Assembly: GCF_029891735.1 (NCBI RefSeq)
Contig: NZ_JANQDH010000041.1
Coordinates: 1 to 64,000, forward strand
Length of the DNA: 64,000 nucleotides
Direction: 5' to 3'
Origin: Chrysosporum bergii ANA360D
GTDB taxonomy: Bacteria; Cyanobacteriota; Cyanobacteriia; Cyanobacteriales; Nostocaceae
Shown here: in pieces, positions 5,983-57,199 of the stretch
Layout of the letters: each line of letters begins with the position of its first letter
Position numbering within the stretch: the stretch's first letter is position 1
The notes under the pieces: model-generated
The model's database searches: none
What the model saw: only the letters and a program-made list of their open reading frames with translations
Told to the model about the DNA's origin: nothing
Translations under genes and position numbers: made by a program

Positions 5983-6549
5983 TCAGGAAAAAACCACTTG
6001 GCTATAACTACTAGCCCAAGTCACCCATTTATGAGATAGTCCCATATGCAATACTTCCCCGGTTTTTTCCGGTTCAGTGAGCATTGCTCCTGTTAGGTCA
6101 GCGCCATTGAGTTCTGCTTCACTGATATTGCAAGCAGTTAAATTAGCCCTGCTGAGATTAGCATTTCTGAAATTCGCCCCACTCATTTCTGCTTCACTGA
6201 GGTTTGCGCCCACCAAGTTGGCAATTTCTAAATTGGCAGCGCGTAAATCTGCACGACTTAGGTTAGAGTCTTCTAAGTTCACTTTAATCAACTCAGCACC
6301 AATCAAGTTAACCTCACTTAAGTTTGCACCCTTTAAATTTGCTCCACTCAGGTCAGCATCTGTTAAATTTGCCTGACTAAAGTTACATCCACTTAAATTA
6401 GCTTGAGTTAAGTTAGCTCCACTTAAATCTGCCTCAGTAAAATCAGCACCACTCAAATTAGTAGCACTCAAATTCATTTGATGTAAATTAGCTCGATTAA
6501 ATGTGCGTTGTCCTGCTGCATAAAGATTGAGGATTTTTTGACTATCCAT
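5983..6549 (-). CDS. Pentapeptide-repeat protein
   Basis: 188 residues made mostly of A(D/N)LxX pentapeptides from about residue 24 to 162 (for example ADLSGANLTQANLSGCNF), which fold as a right-handed quadrilateral beta-helix. The first 20 residues (KILNLYAAGQRTFNRANL) are a typical cyanobacterial leader for such proteins, and the last 25 residues leave the repeat. There is no signal peptide, so a cytosolic location is expected. The ribosome-binding site is unusually strong: GGAGGTGA at 6554-6561. Many such proteins exist per cyanobacterial genome and most have no known role. Confidence 0.9.
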   Translation of the reverse strand: MDSQKILNLYAAGQRTFNRANLHQMNLSATNLSGADFTEADLSGANLTQANLSGCNFSQANLTDADLSGANLKGANLSEVNLIGAELIKVNLEDSNLSRADLRAANLEIANLVGANLSEAEMSGANFRNANLSRANLTACNISEAELNGADLTGAMLTEPEKTGEVLHMGLSHKWVTWASSYSQVVFS

Positions 6550-6664
6550 GTTGTCACCTCCCGGTGTCTACAAGTTATCAAGTTGAGTTATCAGTTACAC
6601 TCCACCCAAACCACAGTTTGCCAGTAACTAATTTTTTTTAGGGAAACTTGTTTCTTCATTGTGC

Positions 6665-6670
6665 TATAAT
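6665..6670 (+). promoter_or_regulatory. Extended -10 promoter element
   Basis: TATAAT preceded by TGC (TGn extended -10) in the gap between the pentapeptide and TPR genes. No good -35 is visible. It would drive transcription through a 33-codon ORF at 6721 and possibly the TPR gene at 7062, about 390 bases away. Confidence 0.45.
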
Positions 6671-6720
6671 TACAAGCTGTTTTCAAAAATCCTTAATAGA
6701 AATATACTTAACTTAACTTA

Positions 6721-6822
6721 ATGGCTGATTTCATATCTACCCTATCTGAAGCAGTGGCTACATATGGCCGAGGAAGCCCACATCCCCCTGCGGAAACAAT
6801 TGTCAAAGCTTTGTTAATATAG
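6721..6822 (+). CDS. Candidate 33-aa peptide
   Basis: An ATG-to-TAG frame of 33 codons (MADFISTLSEAVATYGRGSP then HPPAETIVKALLI) about 50 bases after an extended -10. No Shine-Dalgarno is visible. The peptide has two amphipathic helices around a GRGSPHPP turn. It may be a leader peptide, an N-terminal relic of a lost gene, or chance. The rest of 6550-7061 has no other recognisable feature. Confidence 0.3.
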   Translation: MADFISTLSEAVATYGRGSPHPPAETIVKALLI

Positions 6823-7061
6823 CCTTTCTGTTGGTAGTGAGGTACGTTATTAGCTGGCAAAATGCCCTGAATACAAGGTTGATATTATTTATATTTGTAT
6901 TGTACTTAAGTAAAAACACTATTGTATTTTTTTGTTTCAACTCTATTTACTTTTTATCACTCAAGAGAGAGAATAACGGTTAACTCAAATTTGGGAAACC
7001 TCCAAAGGGTTGATTCCCAAACATAACTTGCCAATTCATCGCAGAGTTTAACCGGGGTCAG

Positions 7062-8084
7062 ATGACGCAAGCTTTTAATCAAGTCCAAGAGTGGGAACAA
7101 CGCCGCGAGGAAGCCAGCCGTTACTACAAACAAGGCCAGTTTCAAAAATATCTCAGTTTTGCCAGTGAGAATTTAGAGTTAGCCAGAGCAATTCCAGACC
7201 GAGCTAGGGAAGGCCACACATTAAATGATATCGGTTTAGCTCATCTGAGTTGTTGTCAACCTGTACAAGCATTAGAGTGTTTTCAGCAAGCACATTTGGT
7301 AGCTGTGGAAATTGGTAATCAGCAAGCTGAAGCCATCGCACTCAGCAATCTAGGTTCCACCTACAGCCGTTTAGGGCGACTATCGCGATCGCTAGAGTAT
7401 TTTAATCAAGCAGTAGTAATCTTTAGACACCTGCAAGACACTCAAGGGGAAGTTTCTACCCTCAATGATGTAGCCATAATTTACAGCAAATTAGGTCAAC
7501 CAAAGCGATCGCTATTACTACAGTACCAAATTTTGGCCATTCGTCGCTCATTAGGAGATTTTTCTGGTGAAGCAACCACCCTCAATGGTATTGGTCATGC
7601 CTACAGCACTTTAGGTCAGTATGAGCAAGCTTTGGAATTTTTGCAAGCAGCGCTACCCATTCAACGGGCCGTTAAGAACCTCATGGGGGAAGCCACTACC
7701 TTAAATAATATTGCTTCTGTCTATGGTGATTTAGGACAGCCTAAAAAAGCACTTTTACTTTACCATCAAGTTTTGTGGACACGTCGAGCAATAAATGATC
7801 GTGGTGGTGAAGGTACAACCCTACATAATATTGGTTTTACCTACCACCTCCTAGGAAATCACCGTCAGGCCTTGAAACATTACCAGCAAGCCATCCCCAT
7901 TTATCAAGAAATTGGTGATTCTCTGGGAGAAGTTTCCACCCTGTTGAATATGGGTAATGTTTATGCCAAGAGTAAACGCAAAAAATTAGCCCTATCCTAC
8001 TACGAAGAGGCGCGAAATTTAGCTAAAGCCATAGAATCTCAGCCACTCTTGCAAAAGATACAGCATTGTATAGACACTCTTTGA
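7062..8084 (+). CDS. Tetratricopeptide-repeat protein
   Basis: 340 residues with about six TPR units of 40 residues each, in the long form with A-T-L-N-N-I-G then Y-x-x-L-G-Q then A-L-x-x-x-x-Q-A-L-x-I. This is the spacing typical of cyanobacterial proteins related to kinesin-light-chain/TPR_12 repeats. There is no signal peptide, membrane segment or fused effector domain, so it probably acts as a soluble protein-protein scaffold; the partner is unknown. It is convergent with the SGNH gene, with only 24 bases between the stops. The first 25 residues are an amphipathic charged helix before repeat 1. Confidence 0.85.
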   Translation: MTQAFNQVQEWEQRREEASRYYKQGQFQKYLSFASENLELARAIPDRAREGHTLNDIGLAHLSCCQPVQALECFQQAHLVAVEIGNQQAEAIALSNLGSTYSRLGRLSRSLEYFNQAVVIFRHLQDTQGEVSTLNDVAIIYSKLGQPKRSLLLQYQILAIRRSLGDFSGEATTLNGIGHAYSTLGQYEQALEFLQAALPIQRAVKNLMGEATTLNNIASVYGDLGQPKKALLLYHQVLWTRRAINDRGGEGTTLHNIGFTYHLLGNHRQALKHYQQAIPIYQEIGDSLGEVSTLLNMGNVYAKSKRKKLALSYYEEARNLAKAIESQPLLQKIQHCIDTL

Positions 8085-8108
8085 AAAATCATACCCCATC
8101 CCCTAAAT

Positions 8109-9068
8109 TCACTCAAGAGAGGAGTTAGGGCTGAGATTTTCTAGCAGCCATTGCTCAATCACCCCACTAACAAACTGATTACCTAGTAAATTCAGATGTA
8201 TGTGATCTTGATACAGGGCTTTTGCCTGTGGGTGTGCGTTGAGTAATGGTAAAAAATCTATATAGCTAATTTGCTTGGTTTGGGTAAAGTCAATCAATCT
8301 TTGACGGGTTTTAACCTCATAGTCCCGTGGTCCTGGTTCACCAATTTCTCGCAGTAGAGGAGTCATCACCAGTAAAAATTGGCTATTGTTTCCACCAGTG
8401 AATGCTTGAATTTGTCCAATGGCTTCTAAATTAATCCCTACTATATCCCCTGTTTCCTTTTGAACTGCTTTGATTTCCTGGCTGGGCTTTGGTTTGATCA
8501 TGTACCTCTCCCACACTTCCGCCAATGCTAGGGGAGGTTTTTGATCTGGGTAATTGCGATCGCGTCCCACTGGTAAAGATGTAGGTGCAGTGCCAAATAA
8601 ATCATCAGTGTTAATTAACAATACCACAAATTGAGCTTGAAAATTACCAAATTTTTGTAAATACGCTAACTCGTTTCTGGGACTCCAAGAATTAGCAGAA
8701 GCATTTAATACTTGTATTTCCTGGTAATTACTAATATTTGATAGTAGAGAACGGGTGATCAGGCTAGATATGGTATTATCCTGATCAGTCCACCAACCAC
8801 CATTAGCAATAGAATCTCCAATAATTAATACTCTTAGCGTACCGGGTAGGGGTATTTTTTCTACAGGGGGGCTTCGCATGGAATATTGATTAATTTCAAT
8901 CCGGTTACCAAAGCGCCGGGTGCGCTGATTAGGCGCTAACAAATAACCAATGTGGGGATCAGCAACATAAATCAATGGATTACCAAAACCAAACAGCCAT
9001 CGCAACACCACTTCCACCACCACACATAAACCCACAACCCCCACAATCATGATTAGTGCTAATTTCAC
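8109..9068 (-). CDS. Membrane-anchored SGNH/GDSL-like hydrolase
   Basis: 319 residues. Residues 1-24 are one hydrophobic helix, likely an uncleaved anchor. The catalytic block I is GDSIANGG (Ser nucleophile, near residue 83). A block V D-x-x-H is seen as DHIHLN near residue 292, so the Ser-His-Asp set is plausible. This family removes or adds acyl groups on cell-envelope polymers (AlgJ/PatB-like) or acts as an esterase. The GTG at 9068 has AAGGG 8 bases upstream; an ATG at 9050 is possible and would shorten the anchor by six residues. The divergent neighbour is lpxD, which agrees with an envelope role, but the substrate is unknown. Confidence 0.75.
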   Translation of the reverse strand: MKLALIMIVGVVGLCVVVEVVLRWLFGFGNPLIYVADPHIGYLLAPNQRTRRFGNRIEINQYSMRSPPVEKIPLPGTLRVLIIGDSIANGGWWTDQDNTISSLITRSLLSNISNYQEIQVLNASANSWSPRNELAYLQKFGNFQAQFVVLLINTDDLFGTAPTSLPVGRDRNYPDQKPPLALAEVWERYMIKPKPSQEIKAVQKETGDIVGINLEAIGQIQAFTGGNNSQFLLVMTPLLREIGEPGPRDYEVKTRQRLIDFTQTKQISYIDFLPLLNAHPQAKALYQDHIHLNLLGNQFVSGVIEQWLLENLSPNSSLE

Positions 9069-11150: not shown

Positions 11151-11771
<621 letters not shown>

Positions 11772-11930
11772 ACTGCCATTGGGGATTGGGTACTCGGTAC
11801 TGAGTGTTAACTACTGATAATAATTCAATATAGACCAAAATCTGCTAAATCAGAAACTATTATCATGGTTTGGTGGTTCCCAGTCCCCATTCCCCATTCT
11901 TGCAGGTTCATCGCCAAATTTAACTGAGAA

Positions 11931-13181
11931 ATGACAGACCATAAACGTAAACGAGTTGTTGTAACTGGTGTAGGCGCAATTACACCTATTGGTAACACAG
12001 CAGATGAATATTGGGAGGGCTTGTTAAGCGGACGCAATGGCATTGACAACATCACATTATTTGATGCCTCTCGCCATGATTGCCGCATAGCTGGTGAAGT
12101 GAAAAACTTTGATCCACTGGCTTACATGGATCGCAAAGAAGCCAAGCGCATGGACCGGTTTTGCCAATTTGGCGTATCGGCTGCCAAACAAGCCATAAAC
12201 GATGCCAACTTAGTGATTAATGAACTCAACGCCCAACAGGTGGGGGTAATAATTGGTTCAGGCATTGGTGGGCTAAAGGTGCTGGAAGACCAGCAAACAA
12301 TCTATCTCAACCGTGGGCCAGATCGCTGTAGTCCCTTCATGATTCCCATGATGATCGCCAATATGGCCGCAGGACTAACAGCAATTCACACCGGTGCTAA
12401 AGGTCCCAATTCCTGTCCCGTTACCGCCTGTGCCGCAGGTTCCAATGCCATTGGGGATGCTTTTCGCTTAATTCAAAATGGTTATGCTCAAGCCATGATT
12501 TGCGGTGGGTGTGAGGCAGCAATTACCCCCCTAGGTTTAGCTGGATTTGCCGCAGCCAGAGCGCTTTCCACTCGCAATGATGACCCGGCTCATGCTTGCC
12601 GTCCTTTCGATCGCCACCGGGATGGGTTTGTTATGGGTGAGGGTGGAGGAGTTCTCATATTAGAAGAATTAGAACACGCTCTCAGTCGTGGCGCTCGCAT
12701 TTATGCAGAAATGATCGGCTATGGGATGACTTGTGATGCCTATCACATGACAGCCCCAGTACCCGGTGGAGAAGGAGCAGCCAGAGCCATGCAGCAGGCG
12801 CTCAAAGATGGGGGCATTACCCCAGAAATGGTGAGCTACGTCAATGCTCATGGTACCAGTACCCCAGCCAATGATGTCAATGAAACTGCTGCCATAAAAA
12901 CGGCTCTGGGTGACCATGCCCATAAAATCGCTGTCAGTTCCACCAAATCCATGACAGGTCATCTTTTGGGTGGTTCGGGAGGTATTGAAGCAGTGGCAAC
13001 AGTGTTAGCCATCGCTAATGATCAAATTCCCCCAACCATAAATTTAGCAGATCCTGATCCAGAGTGTGACTTAGATTACGTAGCTAATCACAGCCGAACG
13101 CAAACAGTGGCCATGGCATTATCCAATTCTTTTGGTTTTGGTGGACACAACGTCACACTAGCCTTTAAGAAGTACATTTAA
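11931..13181 (+). CDS. fabF: 3-oxoacyl-ACP synthase II (FabF)
   Basis: Condenses malonyl-ACP with acyl-ACP in fatty-acid elongation. 416 residues with the complete Cys-His-His triad: Cys167 in TACAAGSNA, His307 in [11 protein letters not shown], and His344 in [11 protein letters not shown]. The Lys and GFGGHN motifs near the C-terminus are present. It shares a locus with its substrate carrier acpP. Nothing is missing or unusual. Confidence 0.97.
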
Positions 13182-22847: not shown

Positions 22848-23415
22848 GTCAATTATTTGGTTAGGGTTATTTAGTCTAATGGTAATGTAATAAGTATTGC
22901 AAGATGCTACTACACAAACACATAACATATATATACCACTTATAACCTTAATGATCACAAATAAAATTTAAATTCATTTCTCTTCCAATGACCGTAATTG
23001 CCTAGCCCTAAACCGAAAACTTAGCTAAAGTGGAGGGGAACTACCTTGGTTTTATGCCGGGTAGTTTTGCTTGATGTTGGGATTTTATATGTATTTATAC
23101 ATAAATACTGTTAGATATAATTACATTTATTAATACATTAGTTTAGGCTTTCAGATTTTACTCTTACGTATTTCCATTGAAATGTGTTTTTTATGTAAAT
23201 TATGATAATAATACCCCATTTATTTCTCATTTTCATTTTAAAATTACAAATATCAAATTAGGTGTATGTTAACTAACACTGCCTTAGCAGATGGGGAACC
23301 GGATGGATTGAGCAGCGAGCAGGACTTGTACTGAGCGTAGTCGAGGTATGGTCTCAATACAAGACGATCAAGACGATCATTTATATTTGTATCCAATGTG
23401 TTTCAGAAATGCTAT
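22848..23415. other. Divergent AT-rich regulatory region
   Basis: 568 bases between the divergent tyrosine kinase and exosortase genes. It is very AT-rich, with an AACTACC/GGTAGTT hairpin near 23039-23066 and a REP-like palindrome at 23325-23363. No gene or clear operator is seen; promoters for both directions should be here. Confidence 0.5.
23325..23363. repeat. REP-like imperfect palindrome
   Basis: CTTGTACTGAG (23325-23335) and CTCAATACAAG (23353-23363) are inverted arms with one G-T pair around a 17-base loop containing CGTAGTCGAGG. A direct repeat AAGACGATC follows (23361-23378). Similar 'tactgagcgtagtcga' elements are dispersed repeats in many cyanobacteria. Confidence 0.6.
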
Positions 23416-24999
23416 ATGTTAATCAATAAGCCTAAAATAACTGCCACTAAAAAACTATTATTAGCTAAACTAAGTCCATTATTGCAAAAACAGTGGTTTT
23501 ACTTATTAGGTATTTTTACCACCTTAGCGATTTGGCATTTAGACATAATTAGAAATCACCCTATCGCTAGTGAAGAAATAACCTTCTATACTCTGTATTG
23601 GGGAGGTATTTTATACTTACTTTGGCAAAATCGCCATCAAGAACATAACCCTAGTTGGTTTTCTAGCTGGTTAGGCTTGGGATTATTATTCCTGGTTATA
23701 GTTAGACCCCTTCATTTCTGGCATTTAGATTTAATGCTGTTTCGCTATGCGCCCATTGTGGCTGGTTTAGGCTTAGGTCTACTTTCCTTTGGTTTCTTAG
23801 GATTTAAGCACCATTGGCGCTTGTTTTTATTGTTGTGCTTAATGCTTTTTCCCTTCGGCTTGATCAATGAAATTTTTGATTCTCGTTTGCACTTTAGCGA
23901 ATTAACAGCCAGCATCTCCGCTTTTTCACTCCACTACATCGGGTTTAAAGCTACTTACTACGGCGATTTAGTAAAATTACCCACAGGACAGGTAAGGGTC
24001 CTTTATTACTGCACAGGTGGATTATTAATACTTTGGCTACTGAAGCTCACACTCTTAATTTTAGTAGTTGTCTCCCCCTTAACTTGGCGGCAAAGATGGA
24101 CATTGGTGATATCTGCTATTAGTGTCGGCTTTTTAACAGGCTGTATTCGAGTAGCTTTATTAGTTGTTGTCGTAAATAACAAGGATTTGTTTGATTATTG
24201 GCACAGCTATACAGGCGGAAGTATGTTTATGGTTTTTTCAACCATTACCTATGCTTTTTTATGTAATTGGATATTATCGTTAGAAAATTTATCGGCAGAA
24301 AATATTCAACCAATACATACACAAATCATAACCCCTGAACGTCGCTTCTTTTTATTAGGTACTTGGGTGGGAATTATCTTAACGGCTATTTTTTTAATTG
24401 CAACTAAAATAAATATCAATAATTCCATAAATTTGCCAGACCAATTGTCTCTCACTAATTGGCAGCAAATTAACGTCTCATCTCTACAAGAGCAAAAAAT
24501 ATACTTAGATACACAAAAGTTTTTCATAGTTAAATCTGGTAAGAATTATAGTTATATAAATAATAATCAGCAGTTAGACGTAGAAATGCGGTATATGATT
24601 AATACTAGAGGCAATAACAACCCATTTTTAGATGCTAAAAATCCAGATTTTTTGAAAATAAAAAACTTACCAAAAAAAGTTATATTCTCGCCGAAAATTG
24701 GTTACTCAAATTTATATTCTGATGGTAACAAGGGTTTCCTATTATCTTGTGTTAATCCTCGCGGAGGTGGTACGGTTAACTCTCAACAATTTATGCAAAA
24801 CCGCTATCAATATGATTTGAGTTTTAATCGGTTTTTACCTTGGATTTTTGGTCAAGATGTCCTGCGAGATGATCGCTGTTTATGGACGCAGTTATCTGTC
24901 CCTGTAAAGGGAAGACAACCAGATGATATCTATTCAGTTTTAGAGTCAATTTGGTTAGAAAACTACTGGAAATGGCAGTCTTTACTGCTAAATAAATGA
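23416..24999 (+). CDS. Cyanoexosortase fused to EpsI-like domain
   Basis: Exosortases are membrane cysteine transpeptidases that cut and attach PEP-CTERM proteins during exopolysaccharide-linked export. About 527 residues with eight or more hydrophobic helices in the first 300. The catalytic Cys is in LYYCTGG, Arg in GCIRVALL and His in YWHSYTGG, the expected Cys-Arg-His set. After a further helix near residue 310 comes a soluble region of about 200 residues (TNWQQINVSSL to the end) resembling the EpsI/'exosortase system-associated' domain, usually a separate gene. The ATG at 23416 is preferred to a GTG at 23398. No PEP-CTERM substrate is in the window. Confidence 0.82.
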   Translation: MLINKPKITATKKLLLAKLSPLLQKQWFYLLGIFTTLAIWHLDIIRNHPIASEEITFYTLYWGGILYLLWQNRHQEHNPSWFSSWLGLGLLFLVIVRPLHFWHLDLMLFRYAPIVAGLGLGLLSFGFLGFKHHWRLFLLLCLMLFPFGLINEIFDSRLHFSELTASISAFSLHYIGFKATYYGDLVKLPTGQVRVLYYCTGGLLILWLLKLTLLILVVVSPLTWRQRWTLVISAISVGFLTGCIRVALLVVVVNNKDLFDYWHSYTGGSMFMVFSTITYAFLCNWILSLENLSAENIQPIHTQIITPERRFFLLGTWVGIILTAIFLIATKININNSINLPDQLSLTNWQQINVSSLQEQKIYLDTQKFFIVKSGKNYSYINNNQQLDVEMRYMINTRGNNNPFLDAKNPDFLKIKNLPKKVIFSPKIGYSNLYSDGNKGFLLSCVNPRGGGTVNSQQFMQNRYQYDLSFNRFLPWIFGQDVLRDDRCLWTQLSVPVKGRQPDDIYSVLESIWLENYWKWQSLLLNK

Positions 25000-25257
25000 A
25001 ATCTGAAATATACAGCGATTCTCAGCTAAATTAACCACATTTTCATATCCCACGCTCCAGGCGCAGAGTGGTAGAGGGAGAGATATCTAGATACTAAGTA
25101 TATATTTCTCTCAGAGTTGCTTATGCTGAGAGGGTTAGAGGTGGTGGAAATTGTGCCATTCTACAGTATCATAAACAGCCGCAAAAACCAAGCGATCGCC
25201 CCACGACCGCAAACCTGATTTTACATACAGAGTAGAAATACATCATTAAATGCTATG

Positions 25258-25552
25258 GGACTTACGCATTGACAAAAAACATGATCTATAAGCTCTATAT
25301 CATGCGATTGGCTTCGCCAATCGCCTGTAACACAAGAAGCCGGGGAATAAATTCCCCGTCTCAAAGCTCAAGTCCGTTAAAACGGACTCTTACGGAATGC
25401 GCGAGCGCCTGTAACACAAGCATCCTGCTTGTCACCAATACCCGCTAGAAGCCAGTGCTACTGATACCACATTACAACCCGATGCAATAACCCAGAATCA
25501 AAGTCCCCCTAGATTAATGCACTATTTTGTTATTCTGTCAATGCGTAACTCC
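25258..25552. mobile_element. MITE-like element with hairpin cluster
   Basis: Perfect 12-bp inverted ends TACGCATTGACA (25263-25274) and TGTCAATGCGTA (25536-25547), extending to GGA.TTACGC/GCGTAA.TCC with one mismatch. The element is bordered by the direct repeat ATGCTATG (25250-25257 and 25554-25561), which looks like a target-site duplication, though one extra T separates the right copy. Inside are four perfect hairpins in a row: 25304-25324 (9-bp stem), 25341-25358 (8-bp stem), 25371-25388 (8-bp stem) and 25416-25432 (ACAAGCA/TGCTTGT). There is no ORF. The 25000-25864 gap otherwise holds only the Pho box described below. Confidence 0.75.
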
Positions 25553-25616
25553 TATGCTATGTCATTTCAACCTGTCTTCAGGGTTCAAATCTCCCTCAAA
25601 AAACCAATCACCGGTT

Positions 25617-25646
25617 TTTAAATAAACCTTAACCAGTTCTTAACCT
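25617..25646 (+). promoter_or_regulatory. Candidate Pho box (SphR/PhoB site)
   Basis: Three 8-base units, TTTAAATA, CTTAACCA and CTTAACCT, start at 25617, 25628 and 25639, exactly 11 bases apart. This is the cyanobacterial Pho-box layout (pyrimidine-TTAA-pyrimidine units with 3-base spacers); the first unit is the weakest. It is about 220 bases before the glycosyltransferase at 25865, so phosphate control of the following gene run is possible. Confidence 0.5.
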
Positions 25647-25864
25647 TAATTTGGCATGATTCTAATATACTTATTTACTTAGAGGGTAAACATCAAATGC
25701 AGTAACCCTAACAGAGCCATAACTAAGTTAAATCACCCATAGAACTTGTGGGCGATGACAGTTTGTCCTGGTGATCGATAGGGCTATGACTGCTTTGGGA
25801 AAATCTGATTGATTTGGAGACTGTTTGTTAGTGACGGGAATGTGTCTACCAGTAAATTACCAAG

Positions 25865-27076
25865 ATGAAAAGAACAACTAATATCCATATCGTTCATCTA
25901 TCTAAGTATTATCCCCCCGATAGAGGAGGGATAGAAACTCACGTTCAGACCCTAGCCAGAACCCAAGCGGCTATGGGTGCTGAAGTTGACGTGATTTGTG
26001 TTAATAGATTGGATCAACAAGGAAAGTTATCGAACAAAACCAAGACTGTTGACGATGAAGATGGAGATGTTAAAGTTACCCGTATTGGTCGGGTGCTATC
26101 ATTAGCAGGTTTTGATGTTTGTTTAGGACTGTGCCAAACAATTACCAAATTTCTCAACCAGCCAAATACTATCTTTCATCTACATACTCCTAATCCAACC
26201 ATGCTCTTAGCCTTAACCATGTTGGACAGAAAAGTACCTTTAGTAATTACGCACCACAGCGATGTAATTAAACAAAAAATATTAAAATACGCATTGCGGC
26301 CTTTTGAATATTTGGTTTACAGTCAAAGCGCACAAATTTTAACTACAAGTCATCAATATATTGAAGGGTCAAAATTTCTGCAACAATATCCTTCAAAAAC
26401 AGACGCGCTCCCACTAGGCCTAGACACCACAACATACACTCATCCTAGTCAACAAGCACTAGCTTACAGCCGTAGGTTAAAGAAACAACACGGGGACATC
26501 ATCTGGTTATCTATAGGTAGGCTTGTCTACTACAAAGCATTACATATAGCTATTCAAGCCTTGACACGAGTACCAGGAAAACTCCTGGTAGTAGGAGTTG
26601 GACCTTTAGAAACAGAATTAAAAGCCTTAGTTCAAAAATTAGGAGTTGAGAACCGCATTGTCTGGTTAGGTCGTCTGAATGAGGATGAGCTAGTTGGAGC
26701 TTATCATGCAGCAACGGCTCTTTGGTTTCCCTCTAATGTCCGTAGTGAGGGTTTCGGGTTAGTTCAAGTGGAAGCAATGGCTAGCCGTTGTCCAGTGATT
26801 AATGCCAATATTCCTTGTAGTGGAGTTCCTTGGGTAAACAGACATGAAATAGAAGGTTTAACAGTACCGATTAATGACCCTATGGCTTTAGCTGAGGCTG
26901 CAAAACGTCTACTCCTAGAACCTGGTTTGCGTAACAGACTGGTGAGAGCAAGCAGTAGACGTGCCCAATATTTCAATCACATAAATATGGCTGTCAGAAG
27001 TTTTGAATTTTATTCCCAAGTTTTAAGTCCAGAATTGAATTACCCCAGCATACCAACCAGACTAGATTCGTTATGA
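25865..27076 (+). CDS. Family 4 glycosyltransferase
   Basis: 403 residues, GT-B. The N-terminus reads HLSKYYPPDRGGIETHVQTL (glycine loop G-G-I-E near residue 19), the middle LPLGLDTTTY, and the donor domain has SIGRLVYYKALHIAIQAL and the signature EGFGLVQVEAMASRCP. The gene heads a tight run of same-strand genes reaching 38.2 kb and follows the Pho-box candidate. Its TGA overlaps the ATG of a 49-codon glycosyltransferase stub. Confidence 0.88.
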   Translation: MKRTTNIHIVHLSKYYPPDRGGIETHVQTLARTQAAMGAEVDVICVNRLDQQGKLSNKTKTVDDEDGDVKVTRIGRVLSLAGFDVCLGLCQTITKFLNQPNTIFHLHTPNPTMLLALTMLDRKVPLVITHHSDVIKQKILKYALRPFEYLVYSQSAQILTTSHQYIEGSKFLQQYPSKTDALPLGLDTTTYTHPSQQALAYSRRLKKQHGDIIWLSIGRLVYYKALHIAIQALTRVPGKLLVVGVGPLETELKALVQKLGVENRIVWLGRLNEDELVGAYHAATALWFPSNVRSEGFGLVQVEAMASRCPVINANIPCSGVPWVNRHEIEGLTVPINDPMALAEAAKRLLLEPGLRNRLVRASSRRAQYFNHINMAVRSFEFYSQVLSPELNYPSIPTRLDSL

Positions 27077-52124: not shown

Positions 52125-52505
52125 AGTTTTATTTCTCCTATAAGTTGTAAAAATTCTTTAGGGGTTAAAATCAAAATTCCAAATTTTTCCACAGGTTTAA
52201 GGTCTTTTCTATTATAGCTAATGATGAAGTCTGCTTGTGCTTCAATGGCTAAATCTATTAAAAAGTCATCATTAGAGTCTTTAGCAAGGGGTCGCCAAAG
52301 ATAAAAAATTTTCTGTTGATTACCCATGGCACAAATTCCATTAATAACATTATCAATATCTTCTAATGTTAATTGTAGTTCTTGATGTTCTCGTTTTAAT
52401 TCGTTGATCATTGAGTAAGGTCAAGAGTTTATAAGATGCGCCTTTTTTTGAGCGTAATCCTGATAACATTATGTTAGTATCAATAACTAATTGATAGATT
52501 CTCAT
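52121..52505 (-). pseudogene. PIN-domain toxin, frameshifted
   Basis: Starting at ATG 52505, in ATGA overlap with the methyltransferase stop, the frame reads MRIYQLVIDTNIMLSGLRSK then KGASYKLLTLLNDQR: a typical PIN start with the catalytic D-T-N. The rest of the PIN domain (KREHQELQLTLEDIDNVI through DDFLIDLAIE, then FIISYNRKDL) continues in another frame, open from 52411 to 52121. The total length of 385 bases is not a multiple of three, and the segment expected between the parts (about 17 residues with a conserved Glu) is missing. I infer a deletion that inactivated the toxin. A sequencing error could explain the frame change but not the missing residues. Confidence 0.75.
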
Positions 52506-55500
52506 TTTTGCTTAACACTTTCTTCAATTATTCTAATTTCTTTCTCTGTTAACCCATACAATTTATACACTATCTCATCTATTTCTCTTTCTAATTTTGT
52601 CGTGTCTGCTTTCGGGTTTTGCCGTTTTATTTCCAGGATTTTTTCTACAATTCTTGTAACACACGCATCCTGCGTGTCTGTAGGCTTGGGGATAGATAAC
52701 GGTGAAATATACATTGGTTTATATTCTAGAAATCCACCTTGTCTTGTGGCTGCACTTTGAGAAACTAGATATTGTGTTACAGGAGAATTTAAAACTGCTA
52801 ATAAATACAAACTGTCAGAAACAATTAAATTAGCAGGTGCATTAATATAATAATTAGGTTCTGCAAAAGTAAATTGTGGTTCTGTTGCTAAATTACCCCA
52901 AACAATTTTAGTTTCTTCAAACTCTTTATAGTAAGTAGCCGCACATCTTTGTAAAGCATACCATTCATATCTAATTCCTGTTTCTGCTTTATTCCTAGAT
53001 AATAATTGTTCTTTATATTGACTTAAATGATTTAAAATAGCAGGATATTGTTTCCTAAATTCTTCTTCTGCTTTAACTGAAACACCAACTATTGTACTAT
53101 CTTCATGTAAAGGAAAATGCCAAGGAATAAATAAAAGCCATAAATCAGGATTATTAACCACCCATCTTTTAACATCCCTACCCCGTAAAAATGGTTTCAA
53201 AACTTCCTCTGATGAAGGATGTTCATTAATTAATCTATCTCTAGTTTCTCTATCAACAATAAATGCTTCATTAAAACCGGTTAGAACACCACGATAAAAC
53301 CGGCCATTAACATATTCTCCTAATGGCGTTCCTGTTTTTCTTAACTTTTCCAATAACTGTAAAACAGTATTATCTTCTAATTGCCATCCTTGAGATTTTA
53401 AGGCTTTTTGTTCAATGTAAAAACTGTCTGTATTCAAGACTTCGATAAAATTATCAAAGGGTTTACCTATTTGCCAGTTTAATACTTTTATTTTAGTATC
53501 AATATTTTGTTTTGGTGACACGCTAGAAGCGTGTGTTACTTTCTCAATATTTTGTTTTGGTGACACGCTAGAAGCCTGTGTTACTTTCTCAATATTTTGT
53601 TTTGGTGACACGCTAGAAGCCTGTGTTACTTTCTCAATATTTTGTTTTGGTGACACGCTAGAAGCCTGTGTTACTTTCTCAATATTTTGTTTTGGTGACA
53701 CGCTAGAAGCGTGTGTTACTTTCTCAATATTTTGTTTTGGTGACACGCTAGAAGCCTGTGTTACAGTGATGATGATGCTAGGATAGGCTATAGCTGTAAA
53801 TACAGGTGCATCTCCAAAGTCTATTAGTTGTTTTAATTGAGTTTTCCTAACTAAAAATTCCCGTAACTTTTCCCCATATCCTGAACGAAAATATTTATTA
53901 GAGGTAATATAGGTTAAAATTCCTTTCTTGTTTAATAGTTTGATTCCTTGTTCAAAAAAGTAAACATATAAATCAGCTACTCCTGTAAAACAGCTATATT
54001 GTTGTTTTAAAATTGGTTTTAGTTCCTTAATTTTCTCTTGTCTAACATAAGGAGGATTACCAATACAAATATCAAAAGCATCAACCCCAAACATCCAACT
54101 AGGATCAAAAAAATCAGCACAGGTATTCAAATCATAAGGATTCCATCTTGCCAAAGTATCAGCAGTTGCAGTTTCTAACCCCGTTGACTTCAATAACTGA
54201 CTAATTTCTGTCCGTAAAATATTATCTTTCTCTCGACATTTTTTCTTGGTTTTCGGTGTCCTGGCTTGAAAATATTGTTTCCGGACTTGCTTTAACTCTT
54301 CCTCCTTTCTTATCACCTCTGGACTTCTTAAACTTAACTGAGTTTCTAACCCAATTAAAGAATTAGCAGCAACAAATTTAGTCTCCAGATTAGGTAACGG
54401 TAAAATCCCCCGATTAGCTTGATTATTATTCACCCTTTGGTCAACAATTAACGATATAAAAAAGCGTAACTTAGCAATTTGTACCGCTATCGGTTGAATA
54501 TCAACCCCAAAAATACAATTTTCAATCAAGAATAACTTCCGGGGATAGTCCATCTCATTATTCTCAAACTCATCTTCTATTTCTGCTAACCTTTCCTGTA
54601 ACTTCTGTATCGCTTCTTCCCTTGCATCTTCATAACTAATTTGTTTCGCCACCTGAATATCCCTTAACACAGGTGCTATAGCTTTTTCCTTCTGTTGCTG
54701 TTTCCATTTACTATTATTAGGGTCAAGTTTCCCTAAAATAAACACCAATTTCTGTAAAATTCCCATAGGAAACGCCCCGGACCCACAAGCAATATCAACA
54801 ATTTTTAGGTGATCAATGGCATTAATTAAACGGTTAACTTCATCATCATTAAATTGATGACAGTCATCACCATAAGATAGTAAGTGAGTAAACCGCGTAA
54901 CACAATCATCTTGATTGTTGGATTGAGACAAGCTAGAAGCTTGTGCTACGGTAACACAATCATCTTGATTGTTGGATTGAGACAAGCTAGAAGCTTGTGC
55001 TACGTTGGGGGGATGATTAGCTATATATGTTTGGACTCTTTCTAAATGTTGAGGCGATCGCACAATTTGATCATAAGATTCTTTTTGCCATAGTTGACCA
55101 CGACGGTTAAGATATTTATTAATTTGATTAGCAGTAAAGGATTTCCAAGAATGGGTAATTTCTGATAATTTATGGTTGCCTAATGGTGTCACAATAACAT
55201 GAACATGATTTGGCATGATCACCCATTCTCCTAAATGATAGCGATCGCCGTCAAAATAAGCCAAGGTATCAGCTACAATTTTAGCCAGTTGAGGGTCTTT
55301 GAGATGACATTCTCCCATACCAGCATCTAACCATTGATCAACTCTTTGGGAAAAAAGACGATGATATTCGGCTTGTTCTGTTTCTGATAAAGGTTCAGGA
55401 TGTTTTTTTTGCCAGTCTTCTTTTTCTTGTTCTAAGAATTGCAGTTTCACTTGAGGAAGGGAGTCTGCTAAACGAAATGTGACAAAATATGTTGCCCCAT

Positions 55501-57199
55501 TTTGTTGCCAATGGGGAAGAAATCTCCCAGATATCGCAACACTCCCATCTTCGGTGTTTTTCTCTGACAAGCTAGAAGCTTGTGTTACGGTAACACAATC
55601 ATCTTGATTGTTGGATTGAGACAAGCTAGAAGCTTGTGTTACAGGGAGGGCATTCTGTAGATAAGCAATTAAAGACTCATCTACCATATAATTAACAATT
55701 TCTCTAGGAGTATAAAAAGACCCGGTTTGTTTCCTAGCTGTGGTTTCCGTTTCTGGGTTATATTCTGCCAATAAATTCTCAAATACTTTACCTAACAATT
55801 CCGGGTCTAACGCTATTTCTTCCTCAATGGGAGTATTTTCATCAATAGTAAATTTATAACGATTAAATATATTAATTAATCCCTGGACCTTATACTTTTT
55901 ATTTCTAGTTCCATAGGTTTGGTTTAAATCAACATCTTTTATTTCTCCAAAAAAGAGAACATTAGGAACATTTAAAACATTATCTTCTCTATCGGAAAAA
56001 CCATCAATTCTAATTTTTGTTTTCTCTTTTGCTTTTTGATTATGTTCAAAATCACCATCTTTATCTCTATCTAAACATTCAAATAATCCCCCGTTTAAAA
56101 AAGGGATATTACTACATAACCTTAAAAAATCATCAGCATTAGTAAAATAATCTTGGTAACGATAAACATTAGCTATCCCATAATGTGCATCTCTCCCACT
56201 CTTTTGTTGAGTTTTGCCCCTAAACCTGCGGTTGTCAGGCTTTTCATCCGTGTTCATTTCTGTATTTAGAGTAGCAAAAAACAGATTTTGTAACACAGCT
56301 TTATAATAATTACTTTCCTCTGGTGATACAGATTTCAGTAAATTTCTTAGCTGGTTTTCATCAAATAAAGCATCAGAAACTAACCCCTTTTCTTTTAAAA
56401 ACCAAACAAAAATAAACCGCGTAATTAATCTAATCACACTAGTAGCATTACGGATAGACACATCCGCTTCTCCCCCATCAGGAAATGTGACGGTTTGAGT
56501 AGCCCAAAAATACCAATTAGATACTTCCTGAAAAAATTTATTATTCAGTTCCGAGGTATTGAGAACTTTTTGCCAAGCTGTATGTAGTTGGTCAAAATTC
56601 TCGACATCTGAGAGACATGGTAAAGCTAAATCTGCTAAGATTTCAATATGCGCCCGATGGGGAGAGTTAATATTAATATCCTTAATTAAGGTAATCTTTT
56701 CTAAAACATCTTTATCCCTATCTAACTTGTTAGGACGACGATTAATTATTGATAAAGTAACATAATGCCCATACCGAAATAACACCATCACGGGAATATC
56801 AGACTGACGGTTAATTTCACGGGTAATTTTTGCCAAATCACTACGAGAATAAGCAGGTTTTTGTAACGTTAAACCCAGAAATATATAAGATTTTAAATAA
56901 CCTGTGTCAAAAGAAGGCTGAAATAATCTTCCCTGTCCATTTTGGGTAATTTCTTCTTCTGTCACCTGAACTAAACAATTAACCGACTCCCACTCCTCTA
57001 ACAACCCCTTATCTTCCCGAAAATGCTCCCATGCAAATACTTCTAGCACCTCATCAAGGGTTTGGTTATCTAACAATACTTCCCGTGAAGTTGAGTAACC
57101 CAAAGTTTCCAGCAGATGCTTAATACCATCAGAGGGGGAAACCTGACTAAATTCTTTTAATGCTTGTTCAATAGCACATTTAAGGGTTTGTTGTATCAT
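52502..57199 (-). CDS. Eco57I-type DNA methyltransferase interrupted in frame by a RAYT domain and REP repeats
   Basis: A single 1565-codon frame. Methyltransferase parts: N-terminal specificity/helical region (1-490), GSFYTPREIVNYM near 493, SAM motif I DIACGSGAFPMGIL near 802, catalytic NPPY at 1048-1051, and a target-recognition region to the end. It should make N6-methyladenine and protect host DNA, with the helicase/PLD protein (its start overlaps that gene by 20 bases) as the restriction arm. Three foreign inserts are in frame: about 519-768, a RAYT transposase domain (His665-x-His667, Tyr709) bracketed by REP-derived peptides such as VAQASSLSQSNNQDDCVT; 1146-1233, six copies of VTQASSVSPKQNIEK; and about 1507-1514, DTQDACVT. 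Without them the length (about 1225) fits the family. Insert one separates the YTPRE helix from motif I, so activity may be altered unless the loop tolerates it. Confidence 0.88.
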   Translation of the reverse strand: MIQQTLKCAIEQALKEFSQVSPSDGIKHLLETLGYSTSREVLLDNQTLDEVLEVFAWEHFREDKGLLEEWESVNCLVQVTEEEITQNGQGRLFQPSFDTGYLKSYIFLGLTLQKPAYSRSDLAKITREINRQSDIPVMVLFRYGHYVTLSIINRRPNKLDRDKDVLEKITLIKDININSPHRAHIEILADLALPCLSDVENFDQLHTAWQKVLNTSELNNKFFQEVSNWYFWATQTVTFPDGGEADVSIRNATSVIRLITRFIFVWFLKEKGLVSDALFDENQLRNLLKSVSPEESNYYKAVLQNLFFATLNTEMNTDEKPDNRRFRGKTQQKSGRDAHYGIANVYRYQDYFTNADDFLRLCSNIPFLNGGLFECLDRDKDGDFEHNQKAKEKTKIRIDGFSDREDNVLNVPNVLFFGEIKDVDLNQTYGTRNKKYKVQGLINIFNRYKFTIDENTPIEEEIALDPELLGKVFENLLAEYNPETETTARKQTGSFYTPREIVNYMVDESLIAYLQNALPVTQASSLSQSNNQDDCVTVTQASSLSEKNTEDGSVAISGRFLPHWQQNGATYFVTFRLADSLPQVKLQFLEQEKEDWQKKHPEPLSETEQAEYHRLFSQRVDQWLDAGMGECHLKDPQLAKIVADTLAYFDGDRYHLGEWVIMPNHVHVIVTPLGNHKLSEITHSWKSFTANQINKYLNRRGQLWQKESYDQIVRSPQHLERVQTYIANHPPNVAQASSLSQSNNQDDCVTVAQASSLSQSNNQDDCVTRFTHLLSYGDDCHQFNDDEVNRLINAIDHLKIVDIACGSGAFPMGILQKLVFILGKLDPNNSKWKQQQKEKAIAPVLRDIQVAKQISYEDAREEAIQKLQERLAEIEDEFENNEMDYPRKLFLIENCIFGVDIQPIAVQIAKLRFFISLIVDQRVNNNQANRGILPLPNLETKFVAANSLIGLETQLSLRSPEVIRKEEELKQVRKQYFQARTPKTKKKCREKDNILRTEISQLLKSTGLETATADTLARWNPYDLNTCADFFDPSWMFGVDAFDICIGNPPYVRQEKIKELKPILKQQYSCFTGVADLYVYFFEQGIKLLNKKGILTYITSNKYFRSGYGEKLREFLVRKTQLKQLIDFGDAPVFTAIAYPSIIITVTQASSVSPKQNIEKVTHASSVSPKQNIEKVTQASSVSPKQNIEKVTQASSVSPKQNIEKVTQASSVSPKQNIEKVTHASSVSPKQNIDTKIKVLNWQIGKPFDNFIEVLNTDSFYIEQKALKSQGWQLEDNTVLQLLEKLRKTGTPLGEYVNGRFYRGVLTGFNEAFIVDRETRDRLINEHPSSEEVLKPFLRGRDVKRWVVNNPDLWLLFIPWHFPLHEDSTIVGVSVKAEEEFRKQYPAILNHLSQYKEQLLSRNKAETGIRYEWYALQRCAATYYKEFEETKIVWGNLATEPQFTFAEPNYYINAPANLIVSDSLYLLAVLNSPVTQYLVSQSAATRQGGFLEYKPMYISPLSIPKPTDTQDACVTRIVEKILEIKRQNPKADTTKLEREIDEIVYKLYGLTEKEIRIIEESVKQK
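52661..52677. repeat. REP-like palindrome in methyltransferase 3' region
   Basis: ACACGCATCCTGCGTGT, a perfect 7-bp stem with a TCC loop, preceded by the GTAAC common to the whole family. It is in frame and encodes T-Q-D-A-C-V. The same stem-loop design as 25416-25432. Confidence 0.85.
53501..53764. repeat. 45-bp REP-derived tandem repeat, six units
   Basis: Units start at 53501, 53546, 53591, 53636, 53681 and 53726; the last is cut at TTAC. Each contains GTGACACGCTAGAAGC then G/C TGTGTTAC. Units one and five keep GAAGCGTGT, giving a perfect ACACGCT/AGCGTGT hairpin; the other four have GAAGCCTGT with one mismatch. Period 45 keeps the reading frame and gives 15-residue repeats. A seventh, diverged unit is at 51722-51765. 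Confidence 0.97.
54897..55004. repeat. 54-bp REP pair flanking RAYT (methyltransferase motif I side)
   Basis: Two identical 54-bp units, 54897-54950 and 54951-55004. Each has two palindromes: CAATCATCTTGATTG and ACAAGCTAGAAGCTTGT (7-bp stem, AGA loop). They are in frame (18 residues each) and abut the RAYT domain at its C-terminal end. Confidence 0.97.
55004..55537 (-). mobile_element. REP-associated tyrosine transposase (RAYT/TnpA-REP) domain
   Basis: About 177 residues inside the methyltransferase frame. Hallmarks of the IS200-like Y1 transposase family, RAYT branch: GRFLPHWQQNGATYFVTFRL at the start, HLGEWVIMPNHVHVIVTPLG with the H-x-H metal motif (55199-55207), the RAYT-specific SEITHSWKSFTANQINKYL, and the catalytic tyrosine in WQKESYDQIVRS (55073-55075). 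The usual tail with K-A-G-L and W-P-W-S-S is absent: the domain stops at YIANHPPN and runs into REP peptide. No start codon in this frame is evident at its beginning, so it may only be made as part of the fusion. It is the likely nuclease for the flanking REP palindromes. Confidence 0.9.
55566..55643. repeat. REP units flanking RAYT (N-terminal side)
   Basis: One complete 54-bp unit (55590-55643) almost identical to those at 54897-55004, preceded by a half unit with the ACAAGCTAGAAGCTTGT palindrome (55567-55583). All are in the same orientation and in frame with the methyltransferase. Confidence 0.95.

Follow-up and report, generated by a model that had tools for sequence, protein, structure and literature searches.

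The stretch of DNA analyzed here (the window; 64,000 nucleotides of a contig of Chrysosporum bergii ANA360D) carries at positions 25258-25552 a 295-bp non-coding element, read directly from the sequence, between an exosortase-family gene (23398-24999, PF09721) and a glycosyltransferase gene (25865-27076, PF00534), both on the plus strand. The list of open reading frames contains no frame of 60 or more amino acids inside the element; short, non-coding and ended by terminal inverted repeats (TIRs), it has the features of a miniature inverted-repeat transposable element (MITE). The TIR comprises 17 bp with one mismatch, GGACTTACGCATTGACA on the left (25258-25274, plus strand) and TGTCAATGCGTAACTCC on the right (25536-25552, minus strand), and was seen in the sequence itself, in a repeat search and in the genome-wide TIR search. 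The perfect 12-bp ends named in the original prediction, TACGCATTGACA (25263-25274) and TGTCAATGCGTA (25536-25547), are present, yet they form the inner part of this longer repeat. The repeat search gave inverted arms of 23 nt that are 87% complementary. Compared with dinucleotide shuffles, the element strand folds strongly (z = -5.5 as RNA and -5.7 as DNA), none of 100 shuffles being equally stable.

Outside the TIRs stand the dinucleotides TG on the left (25256-25257; TA in most copies) and TA on the right (25553-25554), followed outwards by a 5-bp target site duplication (TSD), TGCTA, at 25251-25255 and 25555-25559. These assignments come from a comparison in which the flanks of 29 distinct sites with paired TIRs, the loci at hand rather than a systematic sample, were overlaid at all shifts. 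A single shift stood out, namely that with a 5-bp duplication outside a dinucleotide, and here the duplication was exact at 20 of 29 sites, compared with a mean of 0.73 and a maximum of 7 for shuffled flanks. The dinucleotide was TA on the left at 23 and on the right at 24 of the 29 sites, with CA/TG at five sites and TG/TA in the window copy. No matching 5-bp duplication was present at the other nine sites, which include the full copies on contigs C98 and C119 of the same genome. Another of these nine, a 443-bp TIR pair in genome G029, was discarded as a single element and is made up of neighboring elements, one of 174 and one of 188 bp, that each have their own duplication. In a second count, restricted to short elements in G028, G029 and G034, 33 TIR sites were examined, 13 of them without a partner by the pairing rule, and the 5-mer was found at 9 of the 20 paired sites (shuffled mean 0.59, maximum 4); a few sites belong to both counts. 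Intact insertion sequences (ISs) of the set also show a 5-bp duplication. The duplication length is 4 bp for IS701 and 5 bp for ISAba11. The 8-bp direct repeat ATGCTATG of the original prediction does adjoin both ends, but a duplication of 8 bp was rejected since the copies are best aligned by a shift that leaves a 5-bp duplication beyond a dinucleotide; the TSD is TGCTA, and the other three bases are chance matches.

The genome of the strain is a 3.9-Mb draft in 120 contigs, and match counts for the element are lower bounds. At least 102 matches were obtained; 91 of the 102 lie wholly within 25320-25484, while 11 of the 102 matches listed reach the ends or cover most of the element. Both ends are present in five copies, on contigs C41 (the window copy), C72, C12, C119 and C98, with pairwise identities of 91-98%, and partial copies, mostly truncated at the ends of contigs, were found on C94, C47, C40 and C106. 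All TIR matches in this genome with 0-2 mismatches fall in these copies, in the C40 and C106 fragments or in an IS remnant on C76; when up to three mismatches were allowed, 22 matches stood against 10 for a reversed-pattern control, the three-mismatch matches being background. Perfect 5-bp TSDs of different sequence are carried by three of the copies, TGCTA in the window, TATAA and AGCAC, as revealed by the genome search for elements with the same ends that had been proposed with the original prediction. The MITE-like element is thus real: it is repeated in its own genome, is flanked by TSDs and shares its ends with an IS. The copies on C72 and C119 (L002 and L004, at contig ends) share one 59-bp flank and differ on the other side, which may represent one physical junction (an assembly overlap) or recombination between copies.

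The same TIR, with at most one mismatch, occurs in 39 of 60 genomes including that of the strain, with a single match for the reversed control. Genome G036 has a 1136-bp segment ended by two TIRs, with an intact 341-aa transposase ORF whose product matches NF049921 (transpos_IS701_2; E = 4.7e-115, score 384 bits against a curated cut-off of 250) and also Pfam DDE_Tnp_1. The element corresponds to this IS in reverse orientation. Its right 40 bp (25513-25552, minus strand) match the left (5') end of the G036 IS at 38 of 40 positions, and its left part is identical to the right end of that IS at 39 of 47. The left 67 bp (25258-25324, minus strand) derive from the right (3') end of an IS701-family IS, a stretch that measures 79 bp in sister copies; in three of these it agrees at 74-75 of 79 positions with the truncated IS remnant on C76, which runs on into a transposase C-terminus (84% identical over residues 251-338). 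Since the ends match an autonomous IS, the element can be read as an IS-derived MITE. An autonomous transposase with these ends, for which a search had likewise been proposed, was found in relatives (G036 and G029), the genome of the strain holding only the truncated remnant. No intact transposase of the parental type was detected in this draft (three matches, the best of them a C-terminal fragment); several copies of the element lie at contig ends, and the IS could be missing from the assembly. As the draft yields no intact transposase, the element is a candidate for current mobility rather than a proven case.

Relatives of the G036 transposase at E <= 1e-30 were found in 15 of the 60 genomes, that of the strain included. 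Genome G029 contains six identical 1136-bp copies of the IS, whose identity can be taken as a sign of recent movement there. Among 72,556 plasmid records, 40 match the G029 IS, 8 of them over at least 80% of its length; the best match is annotated as ISCysp21 family and more distant plasmid relatives as 'ISAba11 family'. A plain internal deletion of the parental IS, 319 bp long and without repeat cargo, exists in G034 (L179, 1551-1869), and other genomes have short elements of their own with the same ends and different middles, most of which contain short inverted repeats as judged by eye. In G028, a related short element is present in three tandem copies with a spacing of 228 bp (L190, on contig C47 of that genome). 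A phage or plasmid origin of the window element was rejected, with no phage match and only 2 of the 72,556 plasmid records matching, over 40 bp of one end.

The middle of the element, 188 bp at 25325-25512, does not belong to the IS and consists of dispersed palindromic repeats. The four perfect hairpins in a row that had been described are present at 25304-25324, 25341-25358, 25371-25388 and 25416-25432, but hairpin 1 is perfect in the window copy only, and a degenerate fifth hairpin had been overlooked. Comparison of the copies with the IS places hairpin 1 inside the 79-bp IS-derived stretch; it therefore came with the IS. In sister copies it contains 12 more bases and its stem is imperfect, and it is perfect in the window copy because these 12 bp were lost there. 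It is also a dispersed repeat itself, with 22 matches in the genome, 16 of them outside the element family. Hairpins 2 and 3, each with an 8-bp stem, together form a 48-bp repeat that recurs in many places in the strain's own and related genomes. They are bracketed by two copies of a 15-bp direct repeat, CGCCTGTAACACAAG, at 25322-25336 and 25406-25420 (both on the plus strand), an arrangement that suggests a further insertion or duplication. Hairpin 4, with a 7-bp stem, belongs to a REPIN-like inverted pair (25411-25461, plus strand) in which a GTAA-tagged REP faces a degenerate GTAG-tagged REP (tag names as used in the accessible part of PMC3733652), the partner being the fifth hairpin (25443-25461, minus strand), recognized from the sequence and the comparison of copies. 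The two inverted REPs with tags of the GTAG type that characterize a REPIN are therefore present, as GTAA...CTAC, one of the stems being degenerate. The remaining tail of about 50 bp (25464-25512) was partly traced: about 30 bp of it recur on contig C34, where hairpin 1, the REP pair and this part of the tail stand in the same order without IS ends. The element had been regarded as a composite of a TIR element and captured palindromes, which agrees with a middle that is dispersed without IS ends, except that hairpin 1 was inherited from the IS and not separately captured.

The two-hairpin repeat lent itself to a pairing test across its genomic copies. The test used 33 of 39 distinct copies, the six others having been dropped because hairpin 3 was out of register, a filter that favors pairing in hairpin 3. 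Of the 264 cells for each hairpin, 247 were paired in hairpin 2 and 246 in hairpin 3 (at most 231 and 233, respectively, in shuffles), and double (compensatory) changes numbered 23 in hairpin 2 and 19 in hairpin 3 over the 33 copies. Hairpins 2 and 3 are kept as palindromes.

Matches to the Y1_Tnp domain number 18 in the genome of the strain, and REP-type repeats were found near 3 of the 15 loci examined, two of them on C32 and the third in the window. On C32 (L215, 1383-2007), a 135-aa Y1 transposase ORF is bracketed by direct copies of the hairpin 2-3 repeat, one at 100% and the other at 96%, and this arrangement is a possible source element for that repeat. The Y1_Tnp match of the window (about 55013-55243), a RAYT-like tyrosine transposase domain, lies in frame within a minus-strand ORF (52502-57199) for an Eco57I-type methyltransferase of 1565 aa and is flanked by REP pairs of the hairpin 4 type, the REPs in this ORF being read through as peptide. 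The prediction that one hairpin belongs to the same REP family as repeats in the methyltransferase gene was borne out, as the window contains five further matches to hairpin 4, four of which fall within this ORF. The same ORF also contains six REP-like repeats with a spacing of 45 bp at 53518-53764, which give a repeated peptide of the form VTQASSVSPKQNIEK.

We also compared the insertion sites with those of relatives. In two syntenic loci (L095 and L096), the exosortase and glycosyltransferase gene pair is present with no element match between the genes. The intergenic region of L095 measures about 330 bp compared with about 865 in the window, and the joined flanks of the window copy do not align reliably with it; accordingly, no empty site at base level was found for the window copy in L095 or L096, whose intergenic DNA cannot be aligned. 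A search of the same-genus genome G001 with the genes that flank the window element gave no match. Likewise, two IS copies of G029 were compared with the congener G060, which showed synteny around the first copy and no junction at base level.

The copy on C98 has no duplication. Sequences matching its two flanks were found elsewhere on C98, where each continues without a break: the left flank (72 bp, 99%) about 5 kb away inside a BsuBI/PstI-type endonuclease gene, and the right flank (123 bp, 94%) about 3 kb away, upstream of the C5-methyltransferase gene that goes with it. Fragments of a second copy of this restriction-modification locus flank the MITE copy, 3-5 kb from the endonuclease and methyltransferase genes, as though the genes had been deleted there; the positions concerned on C98 (L241, L006) are 6425-8507 and about 11650-11970. 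Most simply, a restriction-modification locus was duplicated and its genes were lost there between two insertions; alternatively, the deletion may have arisen next to a single insertion. Lying between fragments of a duplicated restriction-modification locus, the C98 copy indicates that the element may also leave deletions.

The ends, the copies with their 5-bp duplications, the parental IS and the dispersed middle described above show what the element consists of, and it is very probably a non-autonomous MITE derived from an IS701-family IS of the ISCysp21/ISAba11 type, in which a cluster of palindromes rides with a DDE transposon. Mobilization in trans, recombination at hairpin 1 and the order of events, in contrast, are inferred. 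Hairpin 1, the dispersed palindrome, was probably already present close to the right end of the parental IS. That a C34-like arrangement exists without IS ends and that hairpin 1 is itself dispersed suggests recombination across this shared hairpin, which would have joined the IS end to a chromosomal cluster of the C34 type. The 188-bp cluster within the element comprises the two-hairpin repeat and the GTAA/GTAG REP pair, the latter of the kind that in this genome also flanks a tyrosine (HUH) transposase domain. The transposase gene has been lost, whereas the outermost 40 bp on the left and 67-79 bp on the right of the IS were retained; by binding these ends, a trans-acting transposase of the IS701 family would excise the element and insert it with a 5-bp stagger. 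We propose only tentatively, with somewhat more doubt than confidence, the wider reading that REP/REPIN palindromes spread in this genome both by their own HUH transposase and as passengers of a DDE-type MITE, the vehicle having been built by recombination at hairpin 1.

Alternatively, a plain internal-deletion MITE could have arisen first, and the palindromes could have been inserted later, one by one, by a RAYT instead of being acquired by recombination at hairpin 1. A plain deletion derivative does exist in G034 (the 319-bp element), RAYT-type domains with adjoining REPs are present at 3 of the 15 Y1_Tnp loci examined in the genome of the strain, and the 15-bp direct repeat brackets hairpins 2 and 3 as an insertion or duplication would leave it. 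However, the left junction lies exactly at the end of hairpin 1, C34 has hairpin 1 contiguous with the REP pair without IS ends, and no repeat-free copy with IS ends was found in this genome except the C76 remnant, where hairpin 1 is the sole repeat. We therefore consider such serial insertion rather unlikely, although it deserves to be kept in mind.

The strong folding, the pairing of hairpins 2 and 3 kept across copies with compensatory changes, and one terminator-like match (hairpin 2, minus strand) could also point to a regulatory or terminator function in cis between the exosortase and glycosyltransferase genes, with hairpins conserved for a role in RNA. This is very improbable, as copies occur at unrelated sites with 5-bp duplications, the loci L095 and L096 with the same gene pair show no element match there, and kept pairing is also expected of REP hairpins in DNA. 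There is no promoter-like match inside the element, and a known RNA family was rejected since the region 24900-25900 gave no Rfam match up to E = 5. REP clusters are common in this genome, but the idea that one lies here between chance inverted sequences is refuted by the agreement with the IS ends. The window element has its TIR, the two subterminal regions and the duplications in common with an IS and with other copies, and the TIR pattern is frequent in the 60 genomes against one match for the reversed control.

The IS-derived MITE, as preferred here, can be compared with several known systems. It shares the terminal and subterminal sequence and the 5-bp duplication with the ISCysp21/ISAba11-type IS701-family IS (NF049921), but lacks the transposase gene and contains 188 bp of foreign palindromic repeats instead. 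As described in the accessible part of PMC3733652, Anabaena variabilis, a relative, has GTAG-15 REP dimers within TATAGGAnT...AnTCCTATA palindromes, likewise REP dimers nested in a longer element with inverted repeats. The ends of the window element, TA-GGACTTACG...CGTAA(C/G)TCC-TA, can be set beside TATAGGA...TCCTATA of A. variabilis, a likeness drawn from the printed consensus, which differs further in (ATTTGATT...); that part of PMC3733652 names no transposase for the palindrome. REPINs have been proposed as possible building blocks of more complex repeats and, together with RAYTs, involve two inverted GTAR-tagged REPs, as in the window element (PMC3116915, accessible part); in contrast to REPINs, one REP of the window pair is degenerate, and the pair sits within a DDE-type element that has ends of its own. 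Nezha (Zhou et al., 2008), as cited in parts of PMC3049150, PMC3733652 and PMC10969869, is a cyanobacterial MITE attributed to ISNpu3-like elements and, by this description, likewise a MITE with an IS relative. In Anabaena sp. 90, a related cyanobacterium, the accessible text of PMC3542288 reports 147 short inverted-repeat MITEs of 77-541 bp with internal inverted repeats, called type II and without a matching IS, whereas a matching IS was found here. The literature search returned no relevant paper containing the TIR sequence, and an IS701-family MITE that contains a REPIN-like pair and whose parental IS has been identified is not described in the literature searched, which mostly excluded subscription papers, that on Nezha among them. 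IS-derived MITEs are already known, and it is the composite that is unusual.

Our findings link a short inverted-repeat element of a cyanobacterium to a specific family of transposases, with a duplication measured at 5 bp. Since elements with the same ends are widespread in related genomes (39 of 60 searched, that of the strain included), they could help to sort many unexplained short repeats there. The element also offers, at the level of sequence, a way for one mobile system to acquire and spread the palindromic repeats of another, and such hitchhiking on two transposases, if true, would explain why unrelated palindromic repeats are stacked in the mosaic repeats of cyanobacteria.
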